Source: Prochlorococcus sp. AG-347-M23 (GTDB lineage: Bacteria; Cyanobacteriota; Cyanobacteriia; PCC-6307; Cyanobiaceae). From it: 64,000 nt of DNA. Each line of letters begins with the position of its first letter. Position 1 is the stretch's first letter. The notes beneath the pieces were generated by a model. The model made no database searches and had not been told where the DNA came from. It worked only from the letters and a program-made list of their open reading frames with translations. Positions 31,436-33,908 of the stretch are shown piece after piece. The stretch lies in NCBI GenBank assembly GCA_003278855.1, contig QCCU01000005.1:36453-100452 (forward strand), read 5' to 3'. Position numbers and translations under genes: made by a program.

Positions 31436-32176
31436 TTGGCAGGATCTTGGATTTTCTATACGACATTTCCAAAGATACCTTTAATTAATCCCGAATTTAA
31501 GAATATTGCACAATTTGCCCCGCCTTTAGGATTTTTGATTGGAACAATACAGAGTTATATCTTTCTTTTTTTCATAACAAACTCATGGTCAATTTATGCA
31601 TCTGCATTAATTTGTTTAGCTTCAGGATATTTAATTACTGGTGGGCTACACATTGATGGTTTAATGGATACTTTCGATGGTATTTTTGCGGGTAAAAAGA
31701 AACGTCTAAAAGCCATGAAAGACAGTAAAGTTGGATCCTTTGGCGTTCAAGCTTTAGTTTTTATAACTTTAATTCAAATTGCTTGCATACTGAAAATTCA
31801 AAACCTAATAATTTTTGCATTACCTATATGCTTATTTTGGGGTAGATTTTCAAATTTATTTTTTATAGAAAAATTTAAATATATGAGTTACAAGAAAAAA
31901 TCTATAAGTCACAAAAAGTTTTGGAATGGTTTTAAGAAAGAATCTTTGATCTCCATTTTTTTTCTCTTAATTTTCATTGCATATCAATTTATTTCAATTA
32001 CATCCCAAGCAATATTAATTAAATTTCTAATTCTTATTTTGATTGGTATTTTTCTAAGCTATTCTATCCCAAACATACTAGGTAATAAAATTGGAGGCTT
32101 CAACGGAGATACCTGCGGTGCAAGTGTTGTACTCGTTGAAACTGCAATGATGTTCATGCATGCAATTCTTTTATAG
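31436..32176 (+). CDS. cobS: Adenosylcobinamide-GDP ribazoletransferase (TTG start; true start uncertain)
   Basis: YLITGGLHIDGLMDTFDGIFAGKKKRLKAMKDSKVGSFG, GGFNGDTCGASVVLVE. Confidence 0.92.
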   Translation: MAGSWIFYTTFPKIPLINPEFKNIAQFAPPLGFLIGTIQSYIFLFFITNSWSIYASALICLASGYLITGGLHIDGLMDTFDGIFAGKKKRLKAMKDSKVGSFGVQALVFITLIQIACILKIQNLIIFALPICLFWGRFSNLFFIEKFKYMSYKKKSISHKKFWNGFKKESLISIFFLLIFIAYQFISITSQAILIKFLILILIGIFLSYSIPNILGNKIGGFNGDTCGASVVLVETAMMFMHAILL

Positions 32177-33290
32177 GTAGTTCTAAATAGAAAATATTTT
32201 TCTTCTTAAGATTTTTTGATTTCTCAGTATTATCAATCGAGTTTTTTTCCAGCAAACTCAAATCTCCCCCAATTTGTTTCGCTAATTTCCTCGCCAAAAA
32301 AAGTCCCACACCAGTGCCATCCTTCTTTTTAGCGGCAGATCCTCTAAAACCTTTTTCAAAGATTTTCTCGTTTTCATTTTTGGTTATTTTTTTACCATCA
32401 TCAAATATACAAAGTCCATTACTCGTAATTACTAATCCAATTTCAGCATCTTTTTGGGCATATTTAAAAGCATTTTCTAATAAATTGGCCACAATTTCAG
32501 CAATTACAGCATATTTTGCCTTTAAAGGCGAAATAGTCCAATCTGGCCAAAGACAAGGTTCAGTCCAATCTCTATTCTCCAAGTCTGCATTAGCTTTACC
32601 TCTTTCTAATATTGGCCTCAATAAACTTTGAACAGTTATTACCTTTTTATTATCTAAATTTGGTGGTAATAATAATCTTTCCTCTCCAATTTCCAGAGGA
32701 AGTTGAATAGGTGAATTTAGTTGCGCAAAAGAATCCATATATTGATTAATTTGTTTTTGCTCTATTATCATTCGTTCGACTATTTCAATAGAATCATCAT
32801 CTGAACCAAGTCGTTTTATCAGTAATTTTGCATATGTCCTAATAGCGGCCAATGGATTCCTTAATTGATGGATTATGACATTGACCTGATTTTTTAAATA
32901 ATTGATTTCTTCATTTTTATTTTGACGTTCTAATTCGATAGAGACGCATTTAGCTAAAGATATCGAAAGCGCTTTTAATCTAGAATCAAGAGATACTGGC
33001 CAATTTCCCCCTTTCAAATCAGTTTCTACCCTAAGGACACCAAGTAGAATATCGTTTTCTTGAAGCGGGTACCATCTTCTGTTAGGCGATGAAACCTTTA
33101 GAGAAGGATCATCTTCTATTGATGTAAGTAGCCTATCAATTTGTGGCCATTGACCAATCATTTCAAAGGATGCTTTAGTTCCTTGCTTAGCTGAAGCAAG
33201 ATACATTACCAAATTAGTCACGCCCATTGAACAACCAAAACTTTCTAGCTGTTTACTAATTAATTCTTCAAATTTTTTTGAAAGATTCAT
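32154..33290 (-). CDS. Sensor histidine kinase, Hik2 / chloroplast sensor kinase-like
   Basis: H-box VIHQLRNPLAAIRTYAKLLIKRL, N-box NLLENAFKYA, G-box GTGVGLFLARKLAKQIGGDLSL; GAF-like N-terminus. Confidence 0.85.
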   Translation of the reverse strand: MNLSKKFEELISKQLESFGCSMGVTNLVMYLASAKQGTKASFEMIGQWPQIDRLLTSIEDDPSLKVSSPNRRWYPLQENDILLGVLRVETDLKGGNWPVSLDSRLKALSISLAKCVSIELERQNKNEEINYLKNQVNVIIHQLRNPLAAIRTYAKLLIKRLGSDDDSIEIVERMIIEQKQINQYMDSFAQLNSPIQLPLEIGEERLLLPPNLDNKKVITVQSLLRPILERGKANADLENRDWTEPCLWPDWTISPLKAKYAVIAEIVANLLENAFKYAQKDAEIGLVITSNGLCIFDDGKKITKNENEKIFEKGFRGSAAKKKDGTGVGLFLARKLAKQIGGDLSLLEKNSIDNTEKSKNLKKKNIFYLELPIKELHA

Positions 33291-33370
33291 AACTAATGAA
33301 ATTTTGAGAAATTAAAAAAAAAACTTGAAAAGGGGCTTGTAAAATATGAAAAAAGTATTAAGATATATAA

Positions 33371-33512
33371 AGAGGTCTGACTTTAGCCAGCCTTAAATAT
33401 GAATATTTAATCATATTTTAAGCTACATCAGGGGTTGATGGGTCCTCTATGTAATTTGAAGTGAATTTAAAATCACATATATAAGATTAGTAAAAAAAAA
33501 TAAGACTAATCT
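33371..33512 (+). ncRNA. Candidate structured RNA leader (or sRNA) upstream of the DUF3155-type gene
   Basis: Nested complementary segments: AGAGG(33371)/CCTCT(33444), CTGA(33377)/TCAG(33428), TAG(33384)/CTA(33423), CTTAAATATGA(33392)/TCATATTTTAAG(33411). Second stem AGATTAGT(33484)/ACTAATCT(33505). Confidence 0.5.
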
Positions 33513-33539
33513 CAATAATAATTTCAGGAGTACCAATCA

Positions 33540-33908
33540 ATGTCAAAAAAAAGAAAAAGAATCAGCAGAAGAAGATTGGCTGGCCAAAGAGTAATGGCAC
33601 ATGTACCTATTTATCATATCGAAACAGGCAAACATAAACCAGTTACAGCAGCAAGAAGATTCATAGCTGAAAATGGTCTCTCTGCGCCTTCAGTTTTCAA
33701 CGTCAGAAGAAATGAACACACTACCGATAGATTTTTTTGGGGTGAAAAAGGGTTATTCAGCGCCCAATATGCTGAAGAAAATCATTTTCTATTTCCATCA
33801 CTAAAAGTTGTAGTTGAAGGAATTGGTGAAGAAAAAATATTTGAGGGTCTAGAACTTACTGCAGATGATTGGGAAGAGATTGAAGAATATGAATATGCTT
33901 TTGTTTAA
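33540..33908 (+). CDS. DUF3155-type conserved cyanobacterial protein with very basic N-terminus
   Basis: MSKKRKRISRRRLAGQRVMAHVPIYHIETGKHKPVTAARRFI...; strong Shine-Dalgarno CAGGAG upstream. Family name from memory. Confidence 0.8.
   Translation: MSKKRKRISRRRLAGQRVMAHVPIYHIETGKHKPVTAARRFIAENGLSAPSVFNVRRNEHTTDRFFWGEKGLFSAQYAEENHFLFPSLKVVVEGIGEEKIFEGLELTADDWEEIEEYEYAFV

Follow-up and report, generated by a model that had tools for sequence, protein, structure and literature searches.

The intergenic gap in front of the DUF3155 gene in a high-light-type Prochlorococcus genome (249 nt, positions 33291-33539 of the 64,000-nt stretch analysed here, hereafter the window) carries a conserved structured RNA that recurs upstream of the same gene in other Cyanobiaceae. 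This leader RNA is a Cyanobiaceae family that is ordinary in kind but new as a family, without a match in Rfam. Four of its properties were computed directly, namely its conservation, the covariation of its closing stem P1, its linkage to DUF3155 and its single copy in nearly every matched genome.

The DUF3155 gap and the distribution of its leader

The gap is bounded on one side by the ATG (33290) of a divergently encoded sensor histidine kinase (32154..33290, minus strand; Pfam domains HisKA and HATPase_c; context only) and on the other by the ATG (33540) of DUF3155 (33540..33908, plus strand; 122 aa; PF11352, Pfam E 4e-45), downstream of which lie esterase-like and purH-like genes. Folding of the gap outperformed dinucleotide shuffles (z -2.8; 1/200 shuffles equally good), and every complementary string named in the preliminary description of this DNA was found, confirming that the structured gap it had pointed out is real.

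Comparison of leaders from about 150 family genomes revealed a conserved promoter-like element on the plus strand (33337..33364), composed of TTGTAA (33337-33342), a 16-nt spacer and TAAGAT (33359-33364). The TAAGAT falls inside a conserved 16-mer, AAAAAAGTATTAAGAT (33349-33364), and AAAAAGTATTAAGAT was found exactly in 48 of the 80 distinct non-high-light family leaders that have a match. Among the non-high-light members of the family, mean pairwise identity was 0.92 for the promoter-like element, 0.75 for the core and 0.43 for the third codon positions of DUF3155. The core, AAAGCTACAGCAGAGGTAGATG, lies ~80 nt past the promoter-like element in non-high-light Cyanobiaceae, with a median of 216 nt from its start to the DUF3155 ATG. 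In the high-light genus, column conservation reached 0.98 in the promoter-like element, 0.987 in hairpin P3 (described below) and 0.97 from the Shine-Dalgarno sequence to the start codon, and was lowest (0.83) in the stretch of the gap that precedes the promoter-like element.

The gap may thus be read as a promoter followed by a structured 5' leader (~170 nt) of the DUF3155 mRNA with a predicted transcription start, as part of a best explanation whose chances, taken whole, we put at about even. From the promoter-like element, the start is predicted ~7 nt past TAAGAT, at about 33371, which would give a leader spanning 33371..33539 on the plus strand; no plus-strand terminator-like site was found in 33250-33620, and so none precedes the DUF3155 ATG. 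Positions 33291 to about 33369 are probably not transcribed together with the leader, because they lie upstream of, or within, the conserved promoter-like element. We discounted a short ORF that opens with ATGAAAAAAGTATTAAG, since its start precedes the inferred transcript and lacks conservation. Separately, we observed that the Cyanobiaceae-wide conservation of the 16-mer at 33349-33364 reaches well past a -10 box and that this 16-mer is genome-unique, with a single copy at <=1 mismatch; it may represent a site for a regulator or a special sigma factor.

A covariance model of a three-way-junction RNA, with 91 positions and 26 pairs and termed R1, was trained on leaders from low-light Prochlorococcus, marine Synechococcus and relatives; its 22 non-high-light sequences excluded both the window sequence and its genus. 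R1 nevertheless matched the window at 33382..33475 on the plus strand (29.6 bits, E 1.1e-3), the sole significant site in this 1.5-Mb genome, and it recovered leaders outside the training set, including the top scorer (96 bits). Matches turned up in 152 of the 300 Cyanobiaceae genomes, with few exceptions one per genome, and in none of 131 other cyanobacterial genomes; no phage carrying the leader was found. All R1 placements that were compared by eye with DUF3155 coordinates lay directly upstream of the gene on the same strand, a comparison restricted to genomes with listed DUF3155 coordinates and leaving aside the second matches in genomes G015 and G463. The second match in each of these two genomes is weak (e.g. 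G463:C2:25829-25912, E 0.003). DUF3155 itself was present in 88/101 genus, 141/151 family and 146/146 Cyanobacteriia genomes sampled, and in all genomes at least 90% complete. Searches against Rfam 15 at the gathering threshold returned only three tRNAs for the window, the leader alone at E<=10 gave chance-level matches only, and 20 relatives gave zero matches. The earlier proposal of a new RNA leader preceding the gene of a basic DUF3155 protein is thereby upheld, the element being conserved and matching no Rfam family.

An ancestral three-way junction and its high-light version

As modeled from the non-high-light leaders, the ancestral leader RNA is a three-way junction of stems P1, P2 and P3. 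The 11-bp closing stem P1 is formed by GTCGACTCAGC with GCTGAGTTGAT and P2 by GGTTGCAC with GTGCTACC, these being accompanied by the junction linker AAAGCTAC; P3 comprises CAGAGG, the loop TAGATGNGT and CCYCTG, and across Cyanobiaceae the counterpart of the window's P3 reads CTACAGCAGAGG-TAGATGNGT-CCYCTG; P3 and the linker hardly change. In 70 distinct leaders, 76% of cells held standard pairs, compared with 35-44% when the partners were slid by 1-3 columns, and 171 two-sided changes were counted. The alignment used for these covariation figures had been fitted to the model, which works in their favour, and alignments A3 and A4 are biased towards the structure for that reason. Since shuffles ignore relatedness, the null was made tree-aware: a FastTree tree guided 60 simulated alignments, in which the substitutions observed were redistributed. 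An all-pairs version of this test on 49 sequences yielded no single pair below E 0.05, and a helix-level test was therefore applied. Here, covariation among relatives, proposed in the preliminary description as a check of the structure, proved strong for P1, whose covariation sum of 216 far exceeded the simulated maximum of 112, whereas the sums for P2 (70) and P3 (56) stayed within the null because both stems hardly vary.

When all 64 leaders were aligned with plain MAFFT, RNAalifold recovered hardly any structure, owing to the unequal lengths of high-light leaders and the rest; core anchoring and the covariance model took the place of this alignment. A pairing of CGACC with GGTCG, between the extreme 5' end and a P1 strand, was dropped on inspection by eye, as the 5' sequence is constant and its partner changes. 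In a contig of Prochlorococcus sp. MIT 0701 (L111), the DUF3155 leader holds two tandem copies of the P2-linker-P3 unit, GAGGTTGCAC...CACCAAAGC(C/T)ACAGCAGAGGT.

In high-light strains, the window included, P2 and P3 are kept and P1 is not recognisable. The high-light leader could accordingly be described as the ancestral junction reduced to P2 and P3 with extra hairpins added, a reading that belongs to the same evenly balanced explanation. On the plus strand of the window, the first of its hairpins is a 5' hairpin, AGG(T)CTG/CAGCCT (33373..33393), which across the 81 high-light leaders showed 95.5% of cells paired, 67/81 intact copies and five two-sided cells. The P2 hairpin that follows, AAATATGA/TCATATTT (33395..33418; 97.8% of cells paired), equals the P2 of the relatives. 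P3, written as TACAT(C)AGGGG-TTGATGGGT-CCTCTATGTA (33424..33453, with strands at 33424-33434 and 33444-33453), is the most conserved element of the leader, with 99.6% of cells paired and 77/81 copies intact. The last, a 3' hairpin formed by AGATTAGT (33484-33491) and ACTAATCT (33505-33512), is restricted to the high-light genus; there, 99.7% of its cells are paired, four cells are two-sided and 79/81 copies are intact. This hairpin had already been recognised in the preliminary description.

The remainder of the fold first described fared differently. It had nested AGAGG (33371-33375) with CCTCT (33444-33448), CTGA (33377-33380) with TCAG (33428-33431) and TAG (33384-33386) with CTA (33423-33425) around an inner AT-rich pairing of CTTAAATATGA (33392-33402) with TCATATTTTAAG (33411-33422). 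These strings were found as stated, but the nested fold is not the conserved one, since the competing P3, which uses CCTCT and TCAG, is better kept among the 81 high-light leaders. There, the outer pairs were intact in 70/81, 71/81 and 58/81 leaders, respectively, with no two-sided changes in any of the three, and a divergent high-light clade (L098-L101) has lost AGAGG and kept P3. The inner AT-rich stem corresponds to P2 and survives (intact in 69/81), while the outer nested pairs are not borne out.

Proposed control at the ribosome-binding site

The Shine-Dalgarno sequence noted earlier was located as AGGAG at 33526-33530, and the segment from it to the start codon (33526..33542, plus strand) is predicted to pair with the loop and 3' strand of P3. 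The predicted pairs join GGAG (33527-33530) to 33445-33448, ACC (33532-33534) to 33441-33443 and ATCAA (33536-33540) to 33435-33439; they appeared in 97/100 high-light folds, with a duplex energy of -12.7 kcal/mol. As controls, 128 of 2000 dinucleotide-shuffled sites (6%) paired equally strongly, and among the 52 window genes whose ribosome sites were scored against the same P3, that of DUF3155 ranked fourth, three scoring better. The pairing is thus marginal and no more than suggestive in high-light strains. Across the wider family, native combinations (-7.9 kcal/mol) were no stronger than swapped ones (-8.3 kcal/mol), and the pairing is therefore not general there. A local CTCC...GGAG hairpin over the Shine-Dalgarno sequence, within the last 50 nt before the ATG, occurred in 26/82 family leaders, compared with 0.14 expected from shuffles, and local pairing of the Shine-Dalgarno sequence was predicted in 46 of the 66 family leaders in which it is recognisable. 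The ribosome-binding site is hence predicted to be hidden by a local hairpin in many relatives and, more tentatively, by P3 sequences in high-light strains.

Pairing of P3 with the ribosome-binding site excludes the P3 hairpin, and the two states, P3 formed or P3 on the ribosome-binding site, could constitute a simple on/off switch. We propose that the cis-acting leader controls the start of DUF3155 translation: the ribosome-binding site would be folded away in the leader, and an effector that binds the conserved P2/P3 region would alter its exposure. The most likely effector would be the DUF3155 protein itself, in negative feedback. We infer the regulation, its effector and its direction, and hold this reading to be about equally apt to prove right or wrong. 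Autogenous control, which had also been suggested in the preliminary description, is plausible on sequence grounds, and DUF3155 is the first-guess effector because of the one-gene linkage, its basic N-terminus and its class-wide conservation. The protein is small and basic, with the N-terminus SKKRKRISRRR, and its AlphaFold model is good (pLDDT 85). No fold relatives of the model, known RNA-binding proteins included, were found in the PDB at E<=0.001 and no sequence relatives were found there; as a consequence, it is the composition of the basic N-terminus that makes RNA binding by DUF3155 plausible. We found no functional literature on DUF3155 or the neighbouring PMM02xx locus tags. As an observation on the protein itself, a confident model that has neither a fold nor a sequence relative in the PDB marks DUF3155 as a possible new fold.

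Other explanations of the conserved leader were weighed against this translational control. A metabolite or ion riboswitch would use the junction, with its near-invariant unpaired AAAGCTAC and TAGATGNGT, as a binding pocket, and its ligand would expose or hide the ribosome-binding site. Strong conservation of linker and loop next to a closing stem that covaries is indeed typical of aptamers, but the element is known only before one functionally uncharacterised gene of one family, high-light strains keep the element despite losing P1, and no known riboswitch matched; we consider a riboswitch unlikely. A small RNA can be imagined as well, made from a promoter of its own or processed out of the mRNA, that would use the conserved P3 loop to act on other mRNAs. 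The strong promoter-like element would suit such a molecule, as would the loop of P3 with its 3' strand (GGGTCCTC), which resembles an anti-Shine-Dalgarno seed. It is nonetheless decidedly improbable, and the independent sRNA that the preliminary description had kept as its alternative is disfavoured, given that no plus-strand terminator-like site of its own was detected, that the linkage to DUF3155 is fixed in all placements compared, that the element is absent from the published MED4 Yfr8-Yfr21 list, and that a 2005 screen, which probably covered this gap, yielded no confirmed ncRNA.

It is similarly improbable that the structure merely stabilises or processes the mRNA (e.g. as a guard against RNase E) with no translational regulation. 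Hairpins near the 5' end are frequent stabilisers, which speaks for this explanation; the sequence conservation of loop and linker, however, exceeds what stability alone would need, and hairpins over the Shine-Dalgarno sequence are enriched. Least probable of all, we regard conservation at the DNA level, in which a promoter and binding sites common to the kinase and DUF3155 would be maintained and the folds would be incidental, as a remote prospect. The gap serves two divergent genes and, P3 apart, no stretch is better conserved than the promoter-like element, in keeping with such an origin, yet the compensatory changes in P1 lie far beyond the tree-aware null and P3 comes after the promoter-like element.

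Relation to described RNAs and to leaders outside the family

For strain MED4, Axmann et al. 2005 (PMC1242208, Table 1) listed cluster 217, an RNA element predicted in the interval that separates a two-component sensor histidine kinase from a conserved hypothetical protein, with a 153-nt alignment and a Z of -4.28 on one strand; it is marked '-' in the experimental column, the legend of which defines only '+' and 'NT' (PMC1242208). Judged by its neighbours and length, the DUF3155 gap is probably the counterpart of cluster 217, since the two gaps beside the SasA-like kinase in this genome are shorter (125 and 106 nt); this comparison of kinase gaps stops short of the region upstream of the NblS-like kinase. 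The cluster 217 report flagged a single strain, without the structure, homologues or DUF3155 linkage described here for the leader (PMC1242208).

The leader resembles the Yfr1-Yfr21 RNAs of MED4 in being a Prochlorococcus RNA of the kind found by comparison or microarray, but none of these is listed for the DUF3155 gap; none of Yfr8-Yfr21 was placed between the kinase and DUF3155 (PMC2518516). Yfr103 is likewise a structured RNA, of about 300 nt, from marine Synechococcus and low-light Prochlorococcus (PMC5069720). It has seven paralogues in CC9605 and was described as a free ncRNA (PMC5069720), whereas the present leader is normally single-copy rather than multi-copy, is tied to DUF3155 and occurs also in high-light strains. 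In design, the leader also resembles the autogenous leader RNAs of ribosomal proteins, which share a structured 5' leader before the gene of a small, basic, universal protein, a hidden ribosome-binding site (here predicted) and lineage-specific structures for one gene; in contrast to those cases, DUF3155 does not belong to the known ribosomal proteins and its leader has no Rfam match.

To our knowledge, few cis-regulatory RNAs are known in Prochlorococcus. That this leader is kept with DUF3155 across the ocean's most abundant phototrophs despite genome streamlining would point to tight control of DUF3155 dose. The leader is defined well enough for an RNA-family proposal and offers a direct handle on what DUF3155 binds.

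A broader and rather doubtful extension is a new family of RNA switches in which DUF3155 would bind its own leader, and in which the Cyanobiaceae junction and an unrelated UGUAR/YUACA hairpin with a TTG start would serve the same feedback; if true, DUF3155 would represent a new class of RNA-binding regulator. The second structure derives from DUF3155 leaders outside the Cyanobiaceae (L150-L166 and L170-L183), where a TATACT-like -10 is followed by a CGACGGTTTTGTARC...YTACA hairpin. The TGTAR...YTACA hairpin was present, with G-C and A-T variants, at 13/30 non-Cyanobiaceae loci (0.16 expected), placed 45-76 nt before DUF3155. At 27 of these 30 loci, DUF3155 begins with a TTG start codon, and this combination with a different short hairpin also suggests translational control.
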